Part shown: positions 7,079-54,670 of the stretch, one piece after another
How positions within the stretch are numbered: position 1 is the stretch's first letter
Layout: the number at the start of each line of letters is the position of its first letter
Source of the DNA: Candidatus Paralachnospira sangeri
GTDB lineage: Bacteria > Bacillota > Clostridia > Lachnospirales > Lachnospiraceae
Direction of reading: 5' to 3'
Length of the DNA stretch: 64,000 bases
Assembly: GCA_904397815.1 (NCBI GenBank)
Contig: CAJFOT010000113.1
Coordinates: 16,642-80,641, forward strand
Program-made: the position numbers and the translations under genes
The notes under the pieces: generated by a model
What the model was told of the DNA's origin: nothing
Databases searched by the model: none
What the model saw: only the letters and a program-made list of their open reading frames with translations

Positions 7079-9411
<2,333 letters not shown>

Positions 9412-9422
9412 ATCCTGTCACC

Positions 9423-11228
9423 TTACTTATTATGAAAATCTGCCGCTTCATTCTGATCCGGCAGCACTGCCTGAACATATTCCCTTGCCACAGCCAGAAC
9501 CCGCTCTGTCAGTTCATCTGTCAGTTCTTTCTTTTCCTCTATCTCCCGGCCGATCTCAGGATGGGATGTCTCAAAATAGTCCAGCATCCCTTTCTGGAAT
9601 TCCTTCATCTTCGGCCGTTCTACATTCAGCATCACCTTGTGGGTAGCCGCCAGCAGCGTGATCACCTGCTCATGCATACTCATGGGATTGCACAGAGGCT
9701 GCTTCAGCAGTTCCATCAGTCCGTTTCCATACTGGAGCTGCTCTTTGGTAGAAGCGTCCAGATCAGAACTGAACTGGGTGAACACCTCCATCTCGCGGAA
9801 CTGGGCCAGATCGATACGGATGCTGCCCGATGCCTTCTTCATCGCCTTTGTCTGCGCCGCTCCGCCTACACGGGAAACTGACAGACCGACATTTACCGCA
9901 GGCCGCATACCGGCGAAGAACAGGTCGCTCTCCAGGAAAATCTGACCGTCAGTAATGGAAATCACATTGGTAGGAATATATGCAGACACATCTCCCTCCT
10001 GGGTTTCAATAATAGGAAGGGCTGTGATTGACCCGCCTCCCAGCTCATCGCTCAGCCGGCTGGAACGCTCCAGCAGACGAGAATGAAGATAAAATACATC
10101 GCCGGGATAAGCCTCACGCCCGGGAGAGCGCTCCAGCAGCAGGGACAGCGCCCGGTAAGCCACTGCATGCTTCGACAGATCATCATAGACAATCAGCACA
10201 TCTTTTCCCTGATACATGAAATATTCCGCCAGCGCTGTGCCGGAATAGGGAGCCACATACTGGAGGGATGCCGGGTCACTGGCTGTCGCTGACAGAACAA
10301 TCGTATAATCCATGGCATTATGAGTCCGCAACGTATTGACGATCTTCGCCACAGTTGATGCCTTCTGTCCGATAGCCACATAGATACAGATCACATCCTT
10401 CCCCTTCTGGTTCAGGATGGCATCCACCGCAATGGAAGTTTTTCCTGTCTGCCGGTCACCGATAATCAGCTCTCTCTGCCCCCGGCCAATAGGGAACATA
10501 GAGTCAATAGCCAGAATGCCCGTTTCCAGCGGCACGCTGACAGACTTTCTGTCTACGATACCAGGCGCCTCATGTTCAATCGGACGGTATTCACTGCTTT
10601 CGATCTCACCTCTTCCGTCAATGGGCGCCCCCAGAGCATCTATAATTCTGCCGAGAAAAGCATCTCCTACCGGTACTCCGGCCATTTTGCCGGTGCGCAC
10701 CACCCGGGATCCCTCCCGGATTTCGCTGTCCCGGCCAAAAAGAATGCATCCGGTTTCTTCCCGCCGGATATCCTGCACCATGGCTTTTACTCCATTGTCA
10801 AAAAGAAGGATCTCTCCATACATGGCATGGTGAATCCCTTCTACGATAGCAATTCCGTCACCCACCCAGGTTACAAATCCCACTTCCTGACTGGATGCTG
10901 TCTCGCCCTGAAAATCCTCTATCCTGCCTCTGAGGATGGGGATGATATCTTTCATTTCTGTGGCTTTCTCACGGCCGGACCCGGAGAACATCTGCTGTTT
11001 CAGCTGTCTTAACTGTCCTCTGGCACTGAAGTCAAACTCCATGCTGTCAGCCCGGAGAATAAATCCGCTGATCAGACCGGGCTCTTCCTCCATGACCAGA
11101 TTCACACTGCCGCAGCCGGTTTTTCTCCGGAGAAATTCTTTCATCTGCTGTACCTGTTCTTCCGAGGGAGCCGTCACATACAGCAAAACCGCGTTCAAGG
11201 TTTCCTGCTTAATTTCCTCTTGCTTCAT
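9423..11228 (-). CDS. atpA: F1 ATP synthase alpha subunit with an N-terminal delta-subunit (OSCP) C-terminal domain
   Basis: First ~80 aa match the delta C-terminal domain ([20 protein letters not shown]...[29 protein letters not shown]); then canonical alpha ([18 protein letters not shown]...GDRQTGKTS). Start taken at ATG 11228 behind AGGTGG. Confidence 0.9.
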
Positions 11229-14671: not shown

Positions 14672-15661
14672 CTAATTCCACATTTGTCGTATTTTTTCCT
14701 GTACTTTTTTGTCTCTGGAGATGGCAAAAAGGATAATGACGCATTTGATAATTCTCTGCCAGTAATAAGGAACCCCCACATATCCCATATAATTCTGCAG
14801 GATTCCCCACAGATAGGCGCCGGCCATCGCCCGCAGCACAGAAGCTTTTCCGCCGGAAATCCGGTTTCCGCCCAGCAGATTGCCGACGATGCCGTCATAG
14901 GCATAGCTGGACCCTGTCGTCATCGAGCCATAGCCCACTCTGGCTGTATAGACAACGCCGATAATGCCCGCCACCACGCCGACAATGCAGTAGTTGATAA
15001 AGATGATCTGTCTTACGTTAATCCCTGCTGCCCAGGCTGTGGACTCCCTGTATCCCGCTGCCAGCAGATATCTGCCGTAAAGTGTATTGTTCAGCAGAAA
15101 CTGAAGCACCGCCGCCACAGCCAACAGAATCCATACATACAGCGGCACATACAAAAATTCACTCTGTGCCAGCGGCTGAAGAGCTGTCGTTCTCAGAATA
15201 AAACCTCCGCTGCCTACAATATAGGACAGCCCCTCAAAGCCAATCTGTGTTGCCAACGTCACATAAAAAGATGCAAGCCCCTTCACCCCTACAAACCAGC
15301 CGTTCACCATTCCCATCAGCAGCCCCGCCGCCACCGGCCCCACTACAGCCAGAGGGACGCTGCATCCTTTATACAGCAATAGCGCACAGGTCATATTGGC
15401 CACCGCGACAGCCGCGCCAATAGACAGGTCAAAATGGCCGGCTGCCATCACCAATGCCACACAGCCACTGACAGCAGCAACCGTAGCAATCTGATTTGCA
15501 ATCAGCAAAAGATTCGAACTGGTAAAAAAACCGGGCGCATACAGCCACGCTGCTGCAATCCCCCCAAAAAGCACCAAAACAAAACGATATTCACGCACCA
15601 CCCGGCGGTTAAAGCCATTTCTCATTATAAAACTGTTTTTCAAAAAACGATATATGCCCAT
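14672..15661 (-). CDS. RbsC-like ABC transporter permease
   Basis: FDLSIGAAVAVANM and LLGGNRISGGKASVLRAMAGAYLWGILQN motifs; start set at MGIYRFLKN. Confidence 0.88.
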   Translation of the reverse strand: MGIYRFLKNSFIMRNGFNRRVVREYRFVLVLFGGIAAAWLYAPGFFTSSNLLLIANQIATVAAVSGCVALVMAAGHFDLSIGAAVAVANMTCALLLYKGCSVPLAVVGPVAAGLLMGMVNGWFVGVKGLASFYVTLATQIGFEGLSYIVGSGGFILRTTALQPLAQSEFLYVPLYVWILLAVAAVLQFLLNNTLYGRYLLAAGYRESTAWAAGINVRQIIFINYCIVGVVAGIIGVVYTARVGYGSMTTGSSYAYDGIVGNLLGGNRISGGKASVLRAMAGAYLWGILQNYMGYVGVPYYWQRIIKCVIILFAISRDKKVQEKIRQMWN

Positions 15662-15704
15662 GTTTTTCACCTGCCGTCTCTTTTCTCTGTATCCTCTCCG
15701 CGCT

Positions 15705-17132
15705 TCACTTTCCATAGCGCAGCAGACCCTGCGGGTCATAAACCTTATCGCAGATCTCCATCGCCTCCTGCTCCCGGTTCATGCAGTACAACACGGCGAT
15801 TCCCCGCTGCCTGCATACATTCAGCAGCTGATACAGATAATTCTTTTCTACCTCGTCCGATGTCTCCAGCACTGTGCTGAGCACCAGCAGGCCCGGCCGG
15901 GCCGCCGCCCAGGACAGCAGAGGAAACATAATATTCCTCAGATGGTCTGTCTGCTGCAGTTCCATAATGGTCTGGTTCGTAGAAATACGCCAGGCATGGG
16001 CATTTTCATCCGCGATAAACCGAAGAATTCTCCAGTTCAGGAATCCCATCCTGGTATGATCCCGATAACTCCTGATCATCAGATTTTCATACACGGACAG
16101 ATCAGGAAAGTTCAAATCATTTCCCTGGGCATAGCTCACACAGCCCACACCATATCTGGAAGGCATCTTCCATTTCCGGGCATCCATCCACCGGTTTTTT
16201 ACCCAGAGGCGCCCCTCCATTGCACGTTCTCCCTCCATTGCCTCAAACAATGCCAGCGCAGTCTGGCTGTCCGCATAAACGCCCGCGATTTCACCCTTAT
16301 GAATTTCCAGATCCAGATACAGCTGTGTCCCGGATACATGAAGCTGTTTCGCGCAGAAAACCAGGTCATTCCGCCTCGGCTTATGCAGTTCTATTGTGGG
16401 ATTTTCTCTTTTTTTCATTAAAATGCTCTGAATCATCTGAGAATCGTAATCCTTCCTGTCCATCACGCCGGCCACTTTTCCTGCCGTAATGATTGCCATC
16501 CGGTCTGCGGCAGCCATCAGGTTGCTGACAGAGGTATCCATGTAAATGACGGAAATATCCATTTCCTTCAATTTTATCAGCCACAGTCGGAAGATGTCCA
16601 GCTCCTCCGTGGAAAATTCCCTCCCCACCTGATAAAAGATCACGATTTTGGCATGGTTGTATATCGCCCTGGCGATTTCCACCTGGCACCGTTCAAAAGA
16701 ACTCATCTCCCCGATTCTGCTGTTCAGAGAAATCGGTATCTCATTTTCCTCCAGGAATTCCATCATCCGCCGCTGCAGCTTCCTGCGGCTGACAAAAAAA
16801 TCCGGACCGGCGAAGGAGTGAATCCCGCCGATATTTTCCGCGACAGTCAGATTGGAAAACAGAGCGGATTCCTTCTGAATCAGGTAAATCCCCTTCTGAC
16901 GGGCTTCCATCATATTTTTAAAGGAAACCTTCTGCCCGTCATACCAGAATGTTCCCGTGTCTGCCTGGTCCTGGCCGCTGAGCAGCTCGCACAGAGACAG
17001 CAGACTGCTGTCGTTCTTTCCCAGAATGCCAAGGGTTTCCATCTCAAACAGCGTCAGAGCCACATGGCGCAGAACCCGCTGATGGTTTTTCCGCTTGCAT
17101 ATATTGTACAGATACAGCAATTCCCTTTTCAT
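15705..17132 (-). CDS. RbsA-like duplicated ABC ATPase lacking catalytic motifs (pseudo-ATPase)
   Basis: Full-length two-NBD layout, but P-loop reads GKNDSSLLSL, Walker B KIVIFYQVG, signature MSSFERCQ, H-switch YMDTS; second NBD equally eroded. Confidence 0.8.
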   Translation of the reverse strand: MKRELLYLYNICKRKNHQRVLRHVALTLFEMETLGILGKNDSSLLSLCELLSGQDQADTGTFWYDGQKVSFKNMMEARQKGIYLIQKESALFSNLTVAENIGGIHSFAGPDFFVSRRKLQRRMMEFLEENEIPISLNSRIGEMSSFERCQVEIARAIYNHAKIVIFYQVGREFSTEELDIFRLWLIKLKEMDISVIYMDTSVSNLMAAADRMAIITAGKVAGVMDRKDYDSQMIQSILMKKRENPTIELHKPRRNDLVFCAKQLHVSGTQLYLDLEIHKGEIAGVYADSQTALALFEAMEGERAMEGRLWVKNRWMDARKWKMPSRYGVGCVSYAQGNDLNFPDLSVYENLMIRSYRDHTRMGFLNWRILRFIADENAHAWRISTNQTIMELQQTDHLRNIMFPLLSWAAARPGLLVLSTVLETSDEVEKNYLYQLLNVCRQRGIAVLYCMNREQEAMEICDKVYDPQGLLRYGK

Positions 17133-17149
17133 CCTGTCACATCCTCTCC

Positions 17150-18142
17150 CTACATCCTGGGTACCATAACCTCCACCGTGGTCCCCACCCCCTCTGTGCT
17201 GAACACATGCAGCCCGTAGCCGTCGCCGAAGTAGTGATGAATCCGCTGATTCAGATTCGACAGAGTATTAGGCACCGCGCCGGCGCTTTCTTTTGCCATA
17301 GACCAGGGTTTGGGATGGTACAGTTCCTGCTGCAGCTTTTCCAGCGCTTCCGGCGGCATTCCCACGCCATCGTCTGTCACCACGATCAGCATCCGGCTCT
17401 GGGTGGCCGTCACCTTCAGACGGATCGTCCCCCCGCCCCGTTTTTTCTCCAGTCCATGCATAATCGCGTTTTCCACGATGGGGGAGAGGGTCAGAACCGG
17501 CAGGATACAGTCCCGCACATCCTCCTCATCATATTCCGCCTCGAAACGGTACAGATTGCCGAAGCGGTACCGCTGGATCAGCATATAGTTGTCCACATAG
17601 GACATTTCCTCCCGGAAGGTGGCCATCTCCCCCGTCCGGTTGATCCGGAACCGGAAGAGCATGGCCAGCGCTTCCACGATATCCACGATGTCCTGCCCGC
17701 CATAATCCAGGGCTTTCGCCCGTATGGTCTCCAGCGTATTATAGAAAAAATGAGGGCTGATCTGGTTCTGCAGCGCGTTAAATTCCGCCTGCATGTGAAG
17801 CATTTTGATCTTATAGGGATTATAGTCCTCCGCCACCAGCTCTTCCAGGGCATGGTCCAGCTCTTCCAGCGGCCGCATACAGTCTTCCAGGGTCACTTTC
17901 CTCGGCTCATCCCCTTCCAGCTTCATACGGATCCAGGACAGTCTCTGCCGGAATGCCCGGAAGAAAAACCAGGCCGTCGAGCACACGGCCAGCACCAGAC
18001 AGAATGTCAGCAGCGCCAGAACCGTCCTGCCGGGCGGCCTGCCGTTCAGGGCCGCTCCCCACACAGAGACCAGCAGGATCAGACATACGGCCATCAGAAA
18101 AAAGAGATGGCCGGGAGCCCATTTTGAAAATTTTCCGTTCAA
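17150..18142 (-). CDS. LytS/YesM-type sensor histidine kinase
   Basis: SPHFFYNTLETIRAKA H-box, SPIVENAIMHG N-box, DDGVGMP G-box; two N-terminal TMs with a very short loop. Confidence 0.92.
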   Translation of the reverse strand: MNGKFSKWAPGHLFFLMAVCLILLVSVWGAALNGRPPGRTVLALLTFCLVLAVCSTAWFFFRAFRQRLSWIRMKLEGDEPRKVTLEDCMRPLEELDHALEELVAEDYNPYKIKMLHMQAEFNALQNQISPHFFYNTLETIRAKALDYGGQDIVDIVEALAMLFRFRINRTGEMATFREEMSYVDNYMLIQRYRFGNLYRFEAEYDEEDVRDCILPVLTLSPIVENAIMHGLEKKRGGGTIRLKVTATQSRMLIVVTDDGVGMPPEALEKLQQELYHPKPWSMAKESAGAVPNTLSNLNQRIHHYFGDGYGLHVFSTEGVGTTVEVMVPRM

Positions 18143-18160
18143 CTAGACACCTCATTTCCG

Positions 18161-19774
18161 CTATTGCGCGTAATATTTCCGGTATTCCGCCGGCTTCACC
18201 CCGGTCGCCTTAAAAAACAGCCGGCTGAAATACTTTTCATCGATATATCCCACCTGCTCCGCCACCTTTTTCACCGGCAGATTAGTCGTTCTCAGCAGTT
18301 CCTTTGCCTTGCCGATCCGCACATTCTGCAGATAGGCGGTGAACTTTTCCCCGGTCTGCTCCTTAAATACAGCGCTGAAATAAATCGGATTCAGGGACAC
18401 CACCTCAGCCGTCTCATTCAGGCCGATCGGCCTGGAATAATTTTCATTGACAAAGGCCTTCGCCGTTTTAATGACTTTGCTTTCACTTCGGTGAAAAAGT
18501 TCATCATAGTAGCGTATCCGCTCTGCCAGCCAGTCCTCCAGCTTCCGTATCACATGCTCCAGGCAGGAACAGTTGTCCAGCACTTCCTGGATGCCCTCCC
18601 CCGCCTCCGTCTCTACGGCGGTATCCGCCATTGAAATCAGTTCCGCCTCTGTCAGTTCCATAAACTGCTCCGCCATTGCGTAATAATAGCCGCCCTTTCC
18701 CTCCGGCACTCTGACAGTCTCAAATAAACGCTTCATCTCCATGACAGCAGCTTCCTCATCCAATTTCTGAAGAGCACCGAAATACCGCTCCATCATCTCT
18801 CCGTTCAGCAGCTTTTCCCCGTTCCAGTACTTCCGGCTTTCATACTCCAGTATCTTACCTGCCCCAAACTCGATCCTGCCATGGAGGGTAATCAGGGCGT
18901 GCAGAAAGGAAAGCGGCGCCTCCGCCAGGGTCTCCTGCCGGGAACCGATGCAGATGGTCGCCGTCAGATGACCTTCATATTTATAATTTTCTTCTTTGAT
19001 ATATATATTGTATCGCTTATGCAGGGTGTCCCACATCTCACTGGTAACATTGTGGCACAGAAGAATATATCCCTTATTTCCATCGGTAATATATTCCATA
19101 TCCGCGCACAGGCTCTCTGCCCCCTGCATCACATACCGGCTCACGTCCCGGGTATATTTACTGACATCCTGAGCTGTGATGCCCTCCTGCCAGTCAAAAT
19201 GATCGATTTTCACCACAATTCCCTGCACATACCGGTAGCTGCCGTCGAAGCAGTCCGGCGACGCGAGAAACTCCTCCGCCGCGTCTGTCATATCCAGCGC
19301 CCGGCTGACCGCCGACTGCAGCCAGCTCTTTTTTCTGACGGAACGGTTTTCCTCATCTATCCTCTGCCTGCGGGCTGTCTGCGTGATCTCCCGCGCCCCG
19401 CTTCCCTCCCGCCGCTTTTCCATCAGTTTCTCCAGCGCTTCCAGGAGCTCTGACTGGCGGATCGGCTTCAGCAGATACTCTGTCACGCCCAGCTTCAGCG
19501 CATGGTAGGCATATTCAAAATCCTGGTAACCGCTGATCATAATAAAGTCCATATCCGGATACCGCTCCTTCATCTGCCGCACCATGTCCAGGCCAGACAG
19601 CTCCGGCATACGGATATCACTGATAACCACATCGGGACGCAGCTGGCTGGCCAGCTCCAGGGCCTCTTCGCTGCTCTGTGTCGCCGCCACGATCTCCATC
19701 TCCGGGCTGGTGATGAAATGTCTCAGTAAATTCAGCACGCTCCGCTCATCATCCACCAATAAAATCTTTATCAT
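18161..19774 (-). CDS. Response regulator with AraC-type HTH (YesN-like)
   Basis: VVISDIRMPELSG receiver phosphosite; C-terminal AraC HTH (VKKVAEQVGYIDEKYFSRLFFKATGVKPAEYRK). Confidence 0.95.
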   Translation of the reverse strand: MIKILLVDDERSVLNLLRHFITSPEMEIVAATQSSEEALELASQLRPDVVISDIRMPELSGLDMVRQMKERYPDMDFIMISGYQDFEYAYHALKLGVTEYLLKPIRQSELLEALEKLMEKRREGSGAREITQTARRQRIDEENRSVRKKSWLQSAVSRALDMTDAAEEFLASPDCFDGSYRYVQGIVVKIDHFDWQEGITAQDVSKYTRDVSRYVMQGAESLCADMEYITDGNKGYILLCHNVTSEMWDTLHKRYNIYIKEENYKYEGHLTATICIGSRQETLAEAPLSFLHALITLHGRIEFGAGKILEYESRKYWNGEKLLNGEMMERYFGALQKLDEEAAVMEMKRLFETVRVPEGKGGYYYAMAEQFMELTEAELISMADTAVETEAGEGIQEVLDNCSCLEHVIRKLEDWLAERIRYYDELFHRSESKVIKTAKAFVNENYSRPIGLNETAEVVSLNPIYFSAVFKEQTGEKFTAYLQNVRIGKAKELLRTTNLPVKKVAEQVGYIDEKYFSRLFFKATGVKPAEYRKYYAQ

Positions 19775-19863
19775 CCGGTTCTTCCTCTCTGTTCAATCCT
19801 TCTATGCCTGCGCAAAGAAAACATATGTTTCAAAAGAGTATCATAACATATTTTCACCATAAA

Positions 19864-19889
19864 GAAAACAGCGCTTCCGCACTGTTTTC
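19864..19889 (-). terminator. Intrinsic terminator-like hairpin downstream of the esterase/liv block
   Basis: GAAAACAG (19864-19871)/CTGTTTTC (19882-19889). Confidence 0.5.
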
Positions 19890-19908
19890 CCGTGGTATGT
19901 ATGTAAAA

Positions 19909-20775
19909 TTATAGAAACTTTCTGCCTTTCAGTCCTCTCCACTCGTCTGCGTGGGGTACTTTCTCAGTGCCGAAGAAATCCATGGCCTTCTCGATATAGG
20001 GATCCCAGAACCGCCATTCATGGCCCATGCCAGGCTCTTCTTCAAATTTAATATTCATATTTTTTTCCTGACACATCGCTTTAAACGCGGTGTAGTAGTC
20101 ATAGAGAAAGTCTTCTGTTCCGATGCAGAAATACAGCTTCGGCAGCTTTCCCGCCTCATGGAGCGCAATCACCTGTCTCCAGCTGTTCTCCATGGAATCC
20201 TTATACGCCTGGATGCCTCCCGCGTTGTTCACGCCGTTCATCAGCCGGGCGGTATCTCCTCCCATCGCCTGGGTAAACATCTCCTCGTCCGACAGGCTGT
20301 CCAGATCCATGGGCGCATAGGAGAGAACCGCTCCGGCGCCGAAGATCTCCGGACAGTTCAGGGCAAATTTCAGGGCGCCGCCGCCGCCCATAGACAGGCC
20401 GGCCACAAAGTTGTCCTCCGGCTTATCCGATGCCGGCAGCCAGTTGTGCACCAGCGGAACCAGTTCCTCGGTAATCATCCGGAACATGTCAAATCCGGTG
20501 GCGAATCCGGGCCAGTCCCCATAGTTGGAGTTCAGGGCGCTGGGCATCACCACGATCAGCTCCCGCTCTCTGGAGTATACCTCCACCTTGCTCTTTCTCA
20601 GCCAGTCCGTATGATCCCCGTGAGTTCCATGGAGCAGCCAGAGAACTTTATACTTTTTTCCACTCTGAAAAAAATCCTTATTGTCCACTGCCCGGCTCCG
20701 GTCCGGCATGAAAATCGATACCTCCGTGTTTCCTCCCAGATACTGGCTCTCAAAATTCAAATCAATTAATGCCAT
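19909..20775 (-). CDS. Alpha/beta-hydrolase, tributyrin esterase/EstA-like
   Basis: LLHGTHGDHTDW, VAGLSMGGGGALKFAL (GxSxG), GMGHEWRFWD. Confidence 0.88.
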   Translation of the reverse strand: MALIDLNFESQYLGGNTEVSIFMPDRSRAVDNKDFFQSGKKYKVLWLLHGTHGDHTDWLRKSKVEVYSRERELIVVMPSALNSNYGDWPGFATGFDMFRMITEELVPLVHNWLPASDKPEDNFVAGLSMGGGGALKFALNCPEIFGAGAVLSYAPMDLDSLSDEEMFTQAMGGDTARLMNGVNNAGGIQAYKDSMENSWRQVIALHEAGKLPKLYFCIGTEDFLYDYYTAFKAMCQEKNMNIKFEEEPGMGHEWRFWDPYIEKAMDFFGTEKVPHADEWRGLKGRKFL

Positions 20776-20788
20776 CGTTCTTCTCCTC

Positions 20789-21508
20789 TCAGCCTCCCAG
20801 ATAGGCTTTCTTCACATCCTCATTTTTCAGCAGATTCTGACAGGTATCTTCCATCACAATTTCCCCCGTCTGAAGCACATATCCCCGATCGGCAGTGTTC
20901 AGCGCGATCTTGGAGTTCTGTTCCACAAACATGATGGTTACCCCTTCGTCTCTGATTTTTTTGATCGCCTCAAAAATCTCCTGTACCACCAGGGGCGCCA
21001 GGCCCATGGATGGCTCATCCAGCAGCAGCAGCTTCGGATTGCTCAGCATCGCCCGGCCGATGGCCAGCATCTGCTGCTCCCCGCCTGACAGGGAGCCTCC
21101 CAGAGAGTTTTTCCGTTCCTCCAGACGGGGAAACAGTTTAAAAATATCCTCCTGAATTTTCTTCTCCACACTGGCCTTATCCTTAATCAGAAAAGCGCCC
21201 ATCTGAAGATTCTGCACCACATTCAGCTTCGGGAAGATGCACCGTCCCTCCAGTACCTGCGCCATACCTGCGCCGGTGATCTTATGGCCCTTCCAGCCGG
21301 TGATATTTTTCCCGTCAAACAGGATTTCCCCTCTGACTCCTTTCGGATCTGTCAGTCCTGACAGGGTCTGAAGGGTCGTGGTTTTCCCCGCGCCGTTGGA
21401 ACCGATCAGCGTGACCATCTCGCCTTCATCCACATGAAAGCTGACCCCTTTCAGCGCATGGATATTTCCGTAGTAATAATGCAGATCATGTACTTCCAGC
21501 AATGCCAT
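20789..21508 (-). CDS. livF: Branched-chain amino-acid-type ABC transporter ATP-binding protein
   Basis: GSNGAGKTT, LSGGEQQMLAIGRAM, LLLDEPSMGLAP. Confidence 0.93.
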   Translation of the reverse strand: MALLEVHDLHYYYGNIHALKGVSFHVDEGEMVTLIGSNGAGKTTTLQTLSGLTDPKGVRGEILFDGKNITGWKGHKITGAGMAQVLEGRCIFPKLNVVQNLQMGAFLIKDKASVEKKIQEDIFKLFPRLEERKNSLGGSLSGGEQQMLAIGRAMLSNPKLLLLDEPSMGLAPLVVQEIFEAIKKIRDEGVTIMFVEQNSKIALNTADRGYVLQTGEIVMEDTCQNLLKNEDVKKAYLGG

Positions 21509-21510
21509 AG

Positions 21511-22263
21511 TCAGTTACCTCCCAGATAAGCAGTGATCACCTCAGGATTATTCTGTACCTCTTCAGGCTTTCCCTCTGCCAGAAGAAATCCGTCATTCAT
21601 CACATATACATAGTCAGAAATATTCATAATGACATCCATATCATGTTCAATAACCAGAACCGTAATCCCCATGGAGGCGATTTTTTTAATCAGATCATTC
21701 AGCACCACCTTCTCTGTGGCGTTCATGCCCGCTGCCGGTTCATCCAGCAGCAGCACCTTCGGTTCAGTACACAGCGCCCGGGCAATTTCCAGCAGGCGCT
21801 GCTCCCCGTAGGGCAGCTGACCGGCCCGCAGGTCTTTTTTATGCTCCAGGCCCACGATCTTCAGCTTTTCCAGCGCATCCGTCCTGGCCTTTTCCTCCTC
21901 CCGGCGCATCTTCGGCGTACCGAACAATGCGCTGAAAAAACCATAGTTGGTCCGGCAGTGCTTTCCGATCATGGCATTGTCCAGCACAGAAAGACTGTGG
22001 AACAGGTTAATATTCTGATAGGTCCTGGCAATTCCCTCTTCACAGAGCTTAAATCCCCGCCCGTTGGTAATATCCCGGCCTTCATAGTAGATTTTTCCTT
22101 CCGTCACATTCTGTACACCGCTGATACAGTTAAAAAATGTGGTTTTCCCCGCGCCGTTGGGACCGATCAGTCCGGTAATCTGTCCCTTGCGCACATGTAT
22201 GGAGACATGGTTTACCGCCGAAATGCCGCCGAACTGTACCAGCACGTTTTCTGCCTTAATCAT
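21511..22263 (-). CDS. livG: Branched-chain amino-acid-type ABC transporter ATP-binding protein
   Basis: GPNGAGKTTFFNCISG, LLLDEPAAGMNATE. Confidence 0.93.
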   Translation of the reverse strand: MIKAENVLVQFGGISAVNHVSIHVRKGQITGLIGPNGAGKTTFFNCISGVQNVTEGKIYYEGRDITNGRGFKLCEEGIARTYQNINLFHSLSVLDNAMIGKHCRTNYGFFSALFGTPKMRREEEKARTDALEKLKIVGLEHKKDLRAGQLPYGEQRLLEIARALCTEPKVLLLDEPAAGMNATEKVVLNDLIKKIASMGITVLVIEHDMDVIMNISDYVYVMNDGFLLAEGKPEEVQNNPEVITAYLGGN

Positions 22264-23263
22264 TTTTCTCCACTCCTTCCGCTGCTGTTTCCTTTTTCCC
22301 CATATTCAGTCTGGCAGCCAGTTTTCCTTCCAGCTTTTTCAGCGCGCCCATGCAGCCGCCGGGCAGGAATGCTATAAACAGAAGCACTACCCCGCCGAAG
22401 ATAATATCTCTCCAGGCTGTGGCAGAAGCCAGCGCTTCATTGATAAACTGAAATACCACCGCGCCGATAACCGGCCCGAAAATCGTATTCACACCGCCGA
22501 AAATACACATAATCACGTAGTTGAAGGCATTGGACTGAATGTATGTATTGCTGACAACCAGCTCATTCAGATGGGCCGCGCAGGCGCCGGCGAAGCCTAC
22601 ATAAAAGGTGCTGATCGCAAACGCCATTACTTTATATTTCCGCACATTGATTCCCATGCCGTCAGCAGAACGGGTGTTATCCCGGCAGGCCATAAAAGCC
22701 CGGCCGATTTTAGATTTTACAATCATATGCTTCGCCAGCAGGGCGATCACCACGCATACCAGAATAAAATAATAGGTATACCGGTAATTGGAATTCAGAT
22801 TAATGCCGAAAATGCTCAGAGGCTCTACCTTCAGTCCGCGGTAAGGCTCCAGAAAACTGATATTGCAGATCAGCTGGTAGATAAAGTTTGCGAAAGCGAT
22901 GGAAGCCAGCGCCAGAAACTGGAATTTCAGTTTGGAACAGGGAAGGGCTACCAGTGCTCCTGCCGCCGCCGCCACAACTGCCGCAATGAGCATGGAAGCC
23001 ACAACCGGAATGCCGGTATACGTGGTCAGCAGCGTCGTCACATAAGCACCGATGGCGTAATATGCAATATGCCCGAAGGAAATCATGCCTGCATAACCGA
23101 ATAAAATATCCAGGCCGGAGGCTGCCACGATATAAATCCCTACGAAGGAAAAGAAATACAGCCGGTAACTGTTGGTGATCAGCAGCGGCAGAATCACCGC
23201 CGCAAGCCCCACGATCAGCAGAATGATCCGGTTCAGTTTTTTTATGGACAGATTCTCTCTCAT
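22256..23263 (-). CDS. livM: Branched-chain amino-acid-type ABC transporter permease
   Basis: LDILFGYAGMISFGHIAYYAIGAY. Confidence 0.92.
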   Translation of the reverse strand: MRENLSIKKLNRIILLIVGLAAVILPLLITNSYRLYFFSFVGIYIVAASGLDILFGYAGMISFGHIAYYAIGAYVTTLLTTYTGIPVVASMLIAAVVAAAAGALVALPCSKLKFQFLALASIAFANFIYQLICNISFLEPYRGLKVEPLSIFGINLNSNYRYTYYFILVCVVIALLAKHMIVKSKIGRAFMACRDNTRSADGMGINVRKYKVMAFAISTFYVGFAGACAAHLNELVVSNTYIQSNAFNYVIMCIFGGVNTIFGPVIGAVVFQFINEALASATAWRDIIFGGVVLLFIAFLPGGCMGALKKLEGKLAARLNMGKKETAAEGVEKND

Positions 23264-23280
23264 ATGCTACCTCCCTCTGC

Positions 23281-24156
23281 TTATACGTCGCGGACTGCCT
23301 GCTCGTTAAACAGACCGGTGGGACGGACTGCCAGAATCAGGAAAAGGATCAGATAAGCGATCATACTCTTCCATGTAGAATTCACATAACCGCCTACCAG
23401 CGACTCAATCAGACCGATGATAATGCCGCCCACCATCGCGCCGTAAATATTCCCCATGCCGCCTGCCACAGAGCTGGCAAAACCCATCTGCGAGAGATTT
23501 GCGCCCAGCAGGAGGGTGACGCCGTAAATCGGTCCCAGCATCATACCGCACATCGCCGCTACCACAGAAGCCAGCCCCCATGTCAGACCGTTGCTCTTTA
23601 CTACATCAATGCCGCAGGCTTCTGCCGCTTTGCTGTGCATCGCACAGGCCTGCATACCGATGCCGGTTTTGGTTTTGGTCATAAATAAATGTACCAGCAG
23701 CATGGAAATCAACGCCAGAAACAGACACATAATTCTTTCCGGCTGCAGATGGGCGCCTAAAATATTTACTGTAGAAATATTGAAAATAGAAGGGAACCGT
23801 TTCGCGTTAGAACCGAATATCAACGCCTCCCCTCCATTGATAACCCTGGAGAGGCCGAAGGTAATCAGCAGCATATAAACGCCGGTTACGCCCCGCTTCT
23901 GATATTTGGCCACCAGCCCTTTCTGAATCAGCACGCCGAAGGCAAACATAATCACAACGGTTAAAATCAAAGCTACCCCATAAGGCAGTCCGCATACACC
24001 GAAAAAGGTGTATCCCAGAAAGGCAGACAGCGTAATCAGCTCACCCTGCGCCAGATTCATAATGCCGGACGCCCGGTAGATCACACTGTATCCCAGACCG
24101 ATCAGACCATAAATACTTCCCATGATCAGTCCGACTATAATAAGAGATTTAAGCAT
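23281..24156 (-). CDS. livH: Branched-chain amino-acid-type ABC transporter permease
   Basis: GLIGLGYSVIYRASGIMNLAQGE. Confidence 0.92.
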   Translation of the reverse strand: MLKSLIIVGLIMGSIYGLIGLGYSVIYRASGIMNLAQGELITLSAFLGYTFFGVCGLPYGVALILTVVIMFAFGVLIQKGLVAKYQKRGVTGVYMLLITFGLSRVINGGEALIFGSNAKRFPSIFNISTVNILGAHLQPERIMCLFLALISMLLVHLFMTKTKTGIGMQACAMHSKAAEACGIDVVKSNGLTWGLASVVAAMCGMMLGPIYGVTLLLGANLSQMGFASSVAGGMGNIYGAMVGGIIIGLIESLVGGYVNSTWKSMIAYLILFLILAVRPTGLFNEQAVRDV

Positions 24157-24273: not shown

Positions 24274-25581
24274 TTATTTTTCTCTTCCGGTCGCGGATTT
24301 GTACGCGTCATATCCGCCGTCCGTCAGCCAGTTGTCGAAATTCTTGGAACCGCCGTCCACATAGATGGTTCTCATGAATTCGTGGCAGGGCTCACGATCG
24401 CCTTGGGTAAAGTCTACCGGTCCCATACAGAGGCTGATGTCATTGATTCCCAGCATCGCTTCTATAATCGCGTCAGAATCATGGTTTGTGCCGGCCCGCT
24501 TCGCTGCCTCCAGCAGCAGATAGCAGCTGTCATAACATCTGTATGTAATACCAACGGTCGGCAGAGAACCTGTCTTTTCCTGGAACTTCTCCAGGAATGT
24601 GATAACTTCCTCTCTGGCTCCTGCTTCCTGGGCAGCTTCGATAGTTTTGTAGGTTGTGTAAGCTACGCAGCCCATCAAATACTGGGAATTTGCTTCACCA
24701 ATCTGATCTACATGAGAAGTCATCCATTCGTCTTTGTTCATCACAATGCCGTTATATCCATACTCACGAAGCTGTTTCACAAAGTTTACACCTGCGCCTG
24801 AGCATACAACATACACCACATCCGGATTGGAATCTACAATTTTCAGGCACTGCGCGCTGTAATCGGTATCACTTTCTGTACCGGTCTCCACCGCTACCAC
24901 ATTCAGCCCTGCTTCTTCCAGCGCCGGCTCCATACTCTCCCAGTTGGCGATGGAAGCTTCGTCCTGGCCGTAGAATACCGCTATATTTTCATACTGCAGT
25001 TCCTGCATCGTCTCGATGAACTGCGGAATACTGTAATCGGCGTTAAACGCGCCTCTGACAGAATACTTCTGATCATCTGTAACCAGAGAGCCGGATGTTC
25101 CCATGAATACATTGGCGATTCCCGCGTCCTCCAGATAAGGAAGAGCAGCCACTACGTCAGATGACTGGAAGGAACCGATGACCGCGTCCACATTCTGTCC
25201 GATCAGGTACTGCGCCGCCGTCACAGCTGTCTCCGGATTGTTGGTGGTATCATAATAAATAAAGTTAACTTCTTCGCCATTCACAGTGCCGCCGATATCT
25301 TCCACAGCAATCTCAAAGGCAACCTTCATCTCCTCACCAATGGTCGCCGCATTGCCGCTCATCCACTGATATACGCCGATGTTGAAAGCACCTTCCTGGG
25401 TGGTACCTTCTTCTCCCTCAGCCGCCGCCTGGGTATCACCGGAAGCAGCCGTTGTTTCTGCAGCCGCGCCGGTATCATCGGCAGCCGCTGTGGTCTCTCC
25501 GCTTCCGCCGCCGGAGCAGGCTGTCAGTGAGAATGTCATTGCGAGAGCAAGCACCAGAGCTAAAATTCTTTTTTGTCTCAT
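24274..25581 (-). CDS. ABC transporter substrate-binding lipoprotein (LivJ/K, type-1 periplasmic binding fold)
   Basis: Lipobox LTACSGGGSG; start set at MRQKRILALVLALAM. Confidence 0.92.
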   Translation of the reverse strand: MRQKRILALVLALAMTFSLTACSGGGSGETTAAADDTGAAAETTAASGDTQAAAEGEEGTTQEGAFNIGVYQWMSGNAATIGEEMKVAFEIAVEDIGGTVNGEEVNFIYYDTTNNPETAVTAAQYLIGQNVDAVIGSFQSSDVVAALPYLEDAGIANVFMGTSGSLVTDDQKYSVRGAFNADYSIPQFIETMQELQYENIAVFYGQDEASIANWESMEPALEEAGLNVVAVETGTESDTDYSAQCLKIVDSNPDVVYVVCSGAGVNFVKQLREYGYNGIVMNKDEWMTSHVDQIGEANSQYLMGCVAYTTYKTIEAAQEAGAREEVITFLEKFQEKTGSLPTVGITYRCYDSCYLLLEAAKRAGTNHDSDAIIEAMLGINDISLCMGPVDFTQGDREPCHEFMRTIYVDGGSKNFDNWLTDGGYDAYKSATGREK

Positions 25582-25856
25582 TTGTCCAATTTCCTCCTTT
25601 TTTTGCCCGTGTTTATTGTATGACTTTATTATATTCATCTTTACTCAAATCAACAAGGTAGCCATTTTCAACAATCAGGGGGACAAATTCAAGATTGGGT
25701 TGATTAAAATAGTCAGATGTTTTACGATAGCCATAACAGCGCCGGCTGCTTCATACGCCGGTCCGGACGCCGATGCTGTACACTTACTGTCTGTTTGCGG
25801 CAGCGGCGCTGTTCATTTTAATCTTTTATGTTACGCAGAAAGGGGAAACTGATCCA

Positions 25857-26672
25857 ATGGCATTTGTAGAATTGAATTATGGTTCTTATAACCTGGGCAT
25901 GGACAGCAGCGTGTCTGTTTTTCTTCCAGAGAAGCGGCTTCAAAAGCCGGTATCCCAGCCCGACCGGAAATATCCGGTGCTCTATCTGCTCCACGGACAT
26001 TCCGACGACCACACTGCCTATGTGCGCAAGGGTATCACGGAGATCCTGGTGCGGGATCTGGATCTGATCGTGGTAATGCCCAACGGCCACAGAAGCTTCT
26101 ATACCAATGCAAAGCAGGGCCATTTATATGAAAACTTTATTACGCAGGAACTTCCTGTCGTAATCGAAAACTATTTTCCCGCCTCCTCCAGCCGGGAGGA
26201 CCGCTTTATCGCCGGCCTCTCCATGGGCGGATATGGCGCCCTGAAGCTGGCGCTCAACCATCCTGACCTGTACGCCGCTGCCGCCAGCATGTCCGGCGCC
26301 GTATCGCCCAGGATGACGGAAAATGAAAAAACAAAGGGGATGTTCGCAGTGCCTGATATGTTTCAGAATCTGGAAAATATATTCGGTTCGGAAGAGGACT
26401 ACAAAAACAGCGGCAGCGACCTGATGTACATGGCCAGAAAGGTAGATGAATCTGAAGGCCCCAAGCCCCGGATCTTCCAGTGCTGCGGCACCGAAGACCC
26501 GCTGATCGACGACAACCGGGCACTGCGGGATGTGTTCCAGAACGAGCTGAAAAATATTCCATATGAATATAAAGAATCGCCGGGGATCCATAACTGGTTT
26601 TACTGGAATCAGGCACTGGTGGATATTCTGGAGTTTTTGGGATTTGCGGTGGATAGAAATGTAGTGCTGTAA
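25857..26672 (+). CDS. Alpha/beta-hydrolase, tributyrin esterase-like
   Basis: LLHGHSDDHTAYVRKG, IAGLSMGGYGALKLAL; start re-assigned to MAFVELNYG. Confidence 0.88.
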   Translation: MAFVELNYGSYNLGMDSSVSVFLPEKRLQKPVSQPDRKYPVLYLLHGHSDDHTAYVRKGITEILVRDLDLIVVMPNGHRSFYTNAKQGHLYENFITQELPVVIENYFPASSSREDRFIAGLSMGGYGALKLALNHPDLYAAAASMSGAVSPRMTENEKTKGMFAVPDMFQNLENIFGSEEDYKNSGSDLMYMARKVDESEGPKPRIFQCCGTEDPLIDDNRALRDVFQNELKNIPYEYKESPGIHNWFYWNQALVDILEFLGFAVDRNVVL

Positions 26673-46930: not shown

Positions 46931-47225
46931 GGTGTTCTCCTTTCCGGATTACCGGCGCAGATATATATTCTCACTAAACTCATCCTTCGCCTTCGGCTCG
47001 GATTCGTTAAGTGTTCATATTATATCATTTTTTTTGGTAAAAGCTCTATATATTAATAAAAAATATAATAATATCATTTATTTTAATAAACAAGAAATTG
47101 GTCAGATTGACTTTTTTCTTTATGTTTGATACCATATTTTTATTATTTTTATCCAATACCTGACATCAATGGCCTAGAGCCATACCGACTCAGTGCGGCA
47201 TTATTACGAAGGAGGAGGTTATCAA

Positions 47226-47762
47226 ATGAACATAAAATCTACTGACCCGAAATCTGCGGGGAAAACTCCGGGATATGGAAACCATATCGTACAGTATTCT
47301 CCGGAATATTCTTTCTGCACCGGCTGTGTTTCCTGTACAATCATGTGCGGCCTGACCCATGAGGGCTTTACCGGGCGGGGAAACAGCCGTATCCAGGTGG
47401 ATCTGGACGCCCGTTCCCTGGTTCACCATGTGCTGGCCTGTCAGCAGTGCGAGGATCATCCCTGCTATGAGGCCTGTCCCAAAAAGGACGAGACGATGTG
47501 TATCGATCCTGATACAGGAATCGTCTATATCAATGAAGAAAACTGCATCGGCTGCGGCAAGTGCCAGAAGAACTGTAGGTTCACCCCTTCCCGTATCTCT
47601 ATGAAGAAACACAAAGACCGTAAAAAATGGAAAGCGGTAAAATGCGATCTCTGCCGGGGAAACCCGAAAGGCCCTCAGTGTATCAAATGGTGTCCGGTAC
47701 GCTGTCTCGGCCTCAGCGAGGATTCAATCCTGCTGCCAGAGGGTGTCCGCCCCAATACCTGA
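47226..47762 (+). CDS. 4Fe-4S ferredoxin-type electron-transfer protein
   Basis: CTGCVSCTIMC, CQQCEDHPCYEACP, CIGCGKCQKNC; RBS gaaggaggagg. Confidence 0.9.
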   Translation: MNIKSTDPKSAGKTPGYGNHIVQYSPEYSFCTGCVSCTIMCGLTHEGFTGRGNSRIQVDLDARSLVHHVLACQQCEDHPCYEACPKKDETMCIDPDTGIVYINEENCIGCGKCQKNCRFTPSRISMKKHKDRKKWKAVKCDLCRGNPKGPQCIKWCPVRCLGLSEDSILLPEGVRPNT

Positions 47763-54167: not shown

Positions 54168-54569
54168 TTAGAACTTCACCGTCTTCGGCTCTGCCGTAAA
54201 GGATGAGAATACGGCGGTAGCGTCCTTCAGATAAAATACCTGGGTGTTGCCGTCTCCCGGCTGATAGTTCGCTTTCAGGCTGGGATAGCCCTCCAGCATG
54301 TGCTCCTGCGCCGCGATCCTGTCGTCTTCCACAGCGGTCGCCGCGATCCGGATCCATGTACTCCCGTCAAATGCACAGATTTCAATCTTGGGATTTGCCA
54401 TCATCTGTTTCGACACATCCTTCACCTTCCCGGTCTGAATGTACAGCTTGTCCTCAAACAGATCAACAGTTCCGAAAGGACGTACCCTGGGCTGATCCCC
54501 CTCCACGGTAGCCAGATAATAAGTACCGCACTTTTTCAAAAATTCATAAACTTCCTTCATAAAATACAC
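54168..54569 (-). CDS. Pyridoxamine 5'-phosphate oxidase-like (FMN-binding split barrel) protein
   Basis: YYLATVEGDQPRVRPFG...LYIQTGKVKDVSKQMMANPKIEIC. Confidence 0.88.
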   Translation of the reverse strand: MYFMKEVYEFLKKCGTYYLATVEGDQPRVRPFGTVDLFEDKLYIQTGKVKDVSKQMMANPKIEICAFDGSTWIRIAATAVEDDRIAAQEHMLEGYPSLKANYQPGDGNTQVFYLKDATAVFSSFTAEPKTVKF

Positions 54570-54670
54570 CTCCTGAAATCAAAAATATTTGTCTTTTACG
54601 TTTTCCTCCTATATTATACCAGAAATCATCTGAAAATGGAAATATTCTGCCTGAACTGTTACACGTAATT

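Follow-up and report, generated by a model that had tools for sequence, protein, structure and literature searches.

A 64,000-nucleotide stretch of the genome of Candidatus Paralachnospira sangeri (assembly GCA_904397815.1, contig CAJFOT010000113.1, positions 16,642 to 80,641; hereafter the window) contains four genes that encode a YesN-type response regulator (RR), a short YesM-like histidine kinase (HK), an ATPase-dead homolog of the importer motor RbsA with twin nucleotide-binding domains (NBD), here called pRbsA, and an RbsC-like permease. The first three, in the order RR-HK-pRbsA, form a widespread signalling system of gut Clostridia that is apparently undescribed; the open-access PMC literature that could be searched yielded no account of a pRbsA-YesMN system. 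We regard it as probable, if some way from secure, that the cassette is a transporter-coupled two-component system in which pRbsA, seated on RbsC, relays the state of the permease to the kinase, and the regulator induces the transporter. The obligate linkage of the genes, the lost catalytic residues, the purifying selection and the predicted operator with its position are established at the level of sequence; the docking of pRbsA on RbsC, its contact with the kinase, the direction of signalling and the ligand are the parts that we infer.

Occurrence and conservation of the cassette

A kinase-profile search of 299 genomes of the family, in which short kinases were taken as open frames of about 260-410 aa (ordinary YesMs have about 600 aa), found at least one short kinase in at least 44 of the 299 among the matches listed, with up to seven in genome G017; eight further genomes with short kinases came from the order sample and three from the phylum sample. 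Across the 89 short-kinase neighbourhoods that were read, from 56 genomes of several families, a degenerate RbsA lies in the operon at 87, nearly always directly behind the kinase and with the regulator before the kinase. The two exceptions are locus L087, which lies at a contig edge, and L113, whose RbsA-like protein is intact. None of 22 ordinary YesM loci (L158-L179) has a pRbsA, and in the reverse check, covering the 30 best loci for a pRbsA profile in six genomes, all 18 pRbsAs stand beside a short kinase while none of the 12 intact RbsAs does. Cassettes of the same order occur outside the family, in families f5, f22, f24, f50 and f117. FastTree places 73 kinase-linked pRbsAs in one group apart from RbsA (support 98), in a tree whose long branches leave the branching order unsure.

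All four genes of the window are present with the domains named for them, collinear on the minus strand from 19774 to 14672, as an earlier note made from this DNA alone had described; the intergenic gaps are, in order, 18, 17 and about 43 bp. The listed start of the permease frame, 15739, would overlap the ATPase gene, and 15661 is the most likely start because a ribosome-binding site and the start of the ortholog in G002, a second species of the genus, point there. G002 carries HK, pRbsA and RbsC in the same order at 83, 76 and 70% identity, on a contig that starts just before the kinase gene. Pairwise dN/dS between the two species, approximate values obtained by NG86 with dS near 1, is 0.13 for HK, 0.17 for pRbsA and 0.18 for RbsC, whereas three genes nearby (symporter, AtpB and AtpF) give 0.03-0.08; selection on the three is relaxed but clearly purifying. 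A third genome of the genus, G001, has no copy of the window cassette, though a cassette of this type is found there at L106. Viral contigs gave no match, and a search of genome contigs by short peptide patterns, too strict for distant relatives, matched the G002 copy alone. The four-gene arrangement is more than chance, because its order recurs in G002 and, as RR-HK-pRbsA, in dozens of genomes. To that extent the co-conservation proposed in the earlier note stands, but the conserved core comprises three genes, and the dedicated permease is one variant of the cassette, of several origins.

The sensorless kinase and its ATPase-dead partner

The window kinase has transmembrane (TM) segments at residues 13-29 and 41-57 with an 11-residue loop between them (TM scan), and its AlphaFold2 (AF2) model (pLDDT 81.7) consists of a TM helical hairpin with a four-residue turn and then the kinase core, with no extracellular domain. 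The segments are thus too close together for a sensor domain, as had been suspected, and the H, N and G boxes are indeed retained. The kinase (His_kinase plus HATPase_c) and the regulator (receiver plus AraC helix-turn-helix, HTH) have the domains of YesM/LytS-YesN pairs, the extracellular sensor being absent, and the kinase also has the two-TM, short-loop form of the intramembrane-sensing kinases of Bce modules. Exactly two TM segments are found in 64 of 78 short kinases, with loops of 3-26 residues (median 10). Seven kinases (L104, L108, L135, L142, L147, L149, L156) have none, and in most of these the start cannot be moved much upstream, since the regulator gene ends within about 50 bp; L112, considered as a further TM-less kinase, proved to be a contig-edge artefact. 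A kinase that lacks both a membrane part and a sensor domain has to depend on a partner for its signal, and the partner conserved here is pRbsA.

The catalytic erosion of the window ATPase noted earlier is complete: none of seven canonical residues is retained, with K replaced by L, Q by K, D by Y, E by Q and H by T in NBD1, and the signature, Walker A and Walker B of NBD2 lost too. All seven are present in 74 of 74 intact RbsAs from the same loci and between zero and four in 82 of 82 kinase-linked pRbsAs, labels that partly rest on these same motifs, and the fair count is that, of the RbsA-like proteins of full length next to a short kinase, 83 in all, one is intact (L113). Of 82 columns conserved in RbsA, only 18 are retained in pRbsA, for the most part glycines of structural role together with two Asn that follow the Q-loop. 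In pRbsAs these Asn (N100 and N350 in the window) are retained at 85% and 100%, N350 being invariant; from what is known of ABC (ATP-binding cassette) importers we take them to lie where the permease docks. An N-terminal motif is new in pRbsA, with E4 in 78 and R7 in 69 of 82 proteins. The AF2 model of the window protein (pLDDT 89) keeps the twin-NBD fold and is matched by the twin-NBD importer subunits DppD and OppD with a query TM-score of up to 0.76. Its best NCBIfam equivalog is AraG at 121 bits against a cut-off of 689, and it lies far below the cut-offs of all RbsA-type models.

Genome G159 holds two unusual loci, L083, with a half-degenerate ATPase (8661-10139) and a 565-aa kinase, and L113, with its kinase-linked intact RbsA (8572-10023); both fall near the base of the pRbsA group in the FastTree phylogeny and are possible evolutionary intermediates. 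Half-size pRbsAs of about 250 aa, with one NBD and linked to short kinases, occur at L033 (7276-8031) and at L104, where a 254-aa ABC frame lies upstream of the binding protein.

Transporter partners, predicted operator and probable target

Intact RbsA, as a rule together with RbsC and a binding protein, lies within the stretch read at 71 of 89 loci. In a second class of loci, RbsC adjoins pRbsA or shares its operon and there is no intact RbsA; this class comprises the window with G002, L104, L108, L128, L135, L147 and L156, and its permeases are of several origins, mostly on long branches. A Peripla_BP_4 binding protein is present in four of these cassettes (L104, L108, L128, L147), and those of L104 (2369-3427) and L147 (5038-6261) seem to bear an N-terminal membrane anchor rather than a lipoprotein signal. 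LIV- or Opp-type importer genes adjoin three of the seven RbsA-less permease cassettes, L135 being next to an Opp-type importer. In the window, neither a CUT2-type binding protein nor an intact RbsA lies beside pRbsA and RbsC, and the four-gene unit includes no dedicated binding protein, unlike the XylFII-LytS and CuaDSR systems. The earlier note had described a transporter pair without a binding-protein gene, which holds for the CUT2 type, but the LIV-type operon directly upstream has a binding protein of its own and probably matters to the four-gene unit. The rest of the window genome (G000, a fragmented assembly of 150 contigs) contains several further RbsABC sets, has 12 matches to CUT2-type binding proteins, and its nearest permease to the window RbsC is only about 30% identical.

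Among 36 spacers that separate pRbsA from the following transporter gene, direct repeats with a 21-bp period stand out (z 10.8; periods of 20 and 22 come next), and the period effect is much weaker in 113 unrelated spacers (z 4.9). Gibbs sampling yielded the motif TCtAAAgATnnTCnCnTT, occurring twice at a spacing of 20-22 bp; when the sub-clade of a site was excluded, all 24 of the chosen sites were still recovered, in a test that is not fully independent because the sites were picked by score. At loci outside the training set, predicted sites stand before transporters located elsewhere at L100 (score 22.4), L115 (23.2), L106 (22.7), L144 (21.1) and L096 (24.9), a site at L126 (21.6) lies between RR and a divergent binding-protein gene, and none was found at others such as L085, L088, L129 and L136. 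The top score in any of 22 control loci was 8.8. A -10 box follows the operator by 19-22 nt in 25 of 31 sites; operator and -10 box together have the layout expected of an AraC-type activator and would tie the regulator to the cognate transporter operon, which it probably controls.

In the window the genes SBP-livH-livM-livG-livF-esterase (SBP, substrate-binding protein) lie on the same strand directly upstream of the four-gene unit, separated from it by a terminator-like hairpin (coordinates in the table), and are syntenic in G002 up to the contig end. None of 2000 shuffles of the 134-bp spacer reached the score of the predicted operator before this operon, a block nearly invariant in G002 amid diverged flanking non-coding DNA; no operator turned up ahead of the RR gene in the window itself. 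The LIV-type operon is probably the regulatory target of the window cassette and not an obvious partner of its RbsC. At L156, which has its own RbsC, a predicted site precedes an Opp-type binding-protein gene. We propose that pRbsA can borrow the permease of an RbsABC target, and that a cassette whose target is of another family supplies an RbsC itself, a proposal based on three cases; the window cassette would have its own RbsC because the permeases of the probable LIV-type target should not fit pRbsA.

Two other spacers in the window outscore the LIV promoter with the operator motif, 54557-54670 on the plus strand (at 54570) and 46931-47229 on the minus strand (at 46931). Two PF00756 esterases flank the LIV-type operon (19909-20775, minus; 25773-26672, plus), the plus-strand one being transcribed divergently on the other side of the predicted operator, a layout that G002 shares. 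At L156 (2309-2531) a divergent promoter separates an SBP_bac_5 gene from a pair of genes for 458-aa proteins, one weakly ceramidase-like, with an operator-like site in each direction, a hint that may point to the ligand.

Features of the four-gene unit and of its predicted target operon, in window coordinates
Feature	Position	Strand	Evidence
YesN-type RR, 537 aa	18161..19774	-	Pfam Response_reg 6e-29, HTH_18 (AraC-type HTH) 4.5e-20
Short YesM-like HK, 330 aa, two TM helices, very short loop	17150..18142	-	Pfam His_kinase 1.7e-21, HATPase_c 8.7e-10
pRbsA, ATPase-dead twin-NBD RbsA homolog, 475 aa	15705..17132	-	ABC_tran E 1.5e-15; AF2 twin-NBD fold
RbsC-like permease, 329 aa from the supported start	14672..15661	-	Pfam BPD_transp_2 E 1.4e-23 over 2-268/269
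Stable terminator-like hairpin between esterase gene and RR gene	19862..19891	-	-22.8 kcal/mol, z -4.6
Predicted RR operator, tandem direct repeat TCTTGAATTTGTCCCCCT-GAT-TGTTGAAAATGGCTACCT, 21-bp period	25656..25694	-	score 12.4, motif trained without the window
-10 box TATAAT, 22 nt after operator	25628..25633	-	geometry as in 25/31 sites
LIV-type substrate-binding lipoprotein, first gene of predicted target operon; start probably near 25581	24274..25638	-	Peripla_BP_6 4.5e-51
Rest of predicted target operon: livH, livM, livG, livF, esterase	19909..24156	-	synteny in G002

Proposed mechanism, rival explanations and known systems

In the mechanism that we favor, pRbsA, a twin-NBD fold without a catalytic site, would occupy the place of the motor RbsA on an RbsC-type permease, which in most genomes would be borrowed from the adjacent intact RbsABC. 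Ligand, or a ligand-loaded binding protein, would change the conformation of the permease, and pRbsA would hand this change, without ATP hydrolysis, not to transport but to the sensorless YesM-like kinase; the kinase would then phosphorylate the YesN regulator, which would bind the 21-bp direct repeat found shortly before the -10 box and activate the cognate transporter operon. The suggestion of the earlier note that a dead transporter serves as the input of a two-component system survives in part: a transporter-derived input is the best reading of a dead yet conserved ATPase, a sensorless kinase and their co-conservation, but pRbsA usually sits beside a live importer. For the RbsA-less cassettes such as that of the window we put forward a stronger version more tentatively, as a matter close to evenly balanced, in which they are ABC importers turned receptors, permease (with or without binding protein) and ATPase-dead RbsA holding and controlling a kinase that in some cases is TM-less, signalling without ATP hydrolysis and regulating importers of other families (LIV, Opp). 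TM-less kinases are found in five of seven RbsA-less permease cassettes versus one of 70 others (Fisher p 6e-6), an association that rests on only about three independent lineages.

That last limit weighs against our reading, as do several other points: the Walker A lysine is kept in half of pRbsAs, making nucleotide binding possible in some; the window RbsC has no adjacent CUT2 binding protein to account for ligand capture; and the window operator scores below that of most relatives. The chief competing explanation is that pRbsA is a soluble regulator of the kinase (a scaffold, an inhibitor or a sensor of cytosolic metabolites or nucleotides) that docks on no permease, the transporter being merely a target. 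Obligate linkage to the kinase, the seven soluble kinases, the same Walker A lysine and the few cassettes with no permease in the stretch read (L103, L118, L183) all speak for it; we nevertheless think it unlikely, given that a dedicated RbsC beside pRbsA without intact RbsA nearby arose several times, that the post-Q-loop Asn is retained, and that pRbsA distances track RbsC as well as the kinase. The correlations (r 0.78 for pRbsA-RbsC, 0.77 for pRbsA-HK and 0.61 for HK-RbsC) are compatible with a bridging role of pRbsA, although gene linkage alone raises all of them, a further point on the opposing side.

It is improbable that pRbsA chiefly throttles transport by competing with intact RbsA for a shared permease and influences the kinase only incidentally. 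Most loci do have an intact RbsA and one RbsC near pRbsA, which speaks for such competition, but pRbsA is linked to the kinase and not to the transporter, and it persists where no intact RbsA is nearby, in the window and at L104, L108, L128, L135, L147 and L156. Slightly less credible still is that an RbsA encoded elsewhere drives the window permease, the cassette being an ordinary importer and two-component system with a spare ATPase: the other RbsABC sets and CUT2-type binding-protein matches of the genome speak for it, but the closest other permease is distant, G002 keeps pRbsA, kinase and permease together, and the same pattern recurs across genera. As for the ATPase being a decaying pseudogene in an accidental gene group, the loss of all catalytic motifs is what would suggest it, and the dN/dS of 0.17, the intact frames and the single conserved family over many genera make it scarcely believable; random decay in single strains is ruled out by that dN/dS, the single pRbsA group and the 87 of 89 loci.

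In BceRS-BceAB the sensorless two-TM kinase BceS is under the control of its partner ABC transporter (PMC10314905, PMC3023708), and the window kinase resembles it in having two TM segments, no sensor domain and a transporter part as proposed partner. The Bce transporter is, however, functional, has a large extracytoplasmic domain and switches BceS on through its cycling, and BceS itself includes a HAMP domain, whereas the cassette combines a permease of CUT2 type (BPD_transp_2/RbsC rather than BceB) with a YesM-type kinase and an AraC-type regulator and, in place of a functional ATPase, has an ATPase-dead NBD protein, usually beside a live transporter. In PstSCAB-PhoU-PhoR the kinase likewise has no canonical periplasmic sensor domain, and a cytoplasmic linker carries the state of the transporter to it (PMC6978683), but PhoU is not an NBD protein, and the linker proposed here is a dead paralog of the motor itself. 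The clostridial kinase-YesN systems XylFII-LytS-YesN and CuaD-CuaS-CuaR govern sugar ABC transporters (PMC10384115); there a binding protein touches the extracellular domain of the kinase, and here that domain is absent and the extra conserved component is cytoplasmic. RbsABC and other CUT2 importers are homologous in pRbsA and RbsC, and an intact RbsABC is usually near, but pRbsA lacks the catalytic motifs. In UhpA-UhpB-UhpC a transporter homolog is the receptor for a kinase without a sensor of its own; UhpC is an MFS protein, unlike the ABC permease and dead NBD protein proposed here. To our knowledge none of the nearest systems (Bce, Pst-PhoU-PhoR, XylFII-LytS, CuaDSR) uses an ATPase-dead paralog of the motor. 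The cassette would work like a transporter-coupled two-component system and stands outside the Bce, XylFII-LytS and functional CUT2 families.

These observations suggest that, in these bacteria, one part of a nutrient pump became a receptor for nutrients. If this is true, a nutrient-sensing architecture of gut Clostridia would lie hidden under the label 'sugar ABC transporter ATP-binding protein', the signal input of a large set of sensorless YesM kinases would be explained, and there would be an ABC case of a transporter turned receptor that acts without ATP hydrolysis. The predicted operator would then let the targets of such systems, and hence hints to their ligands, be read from genomes.

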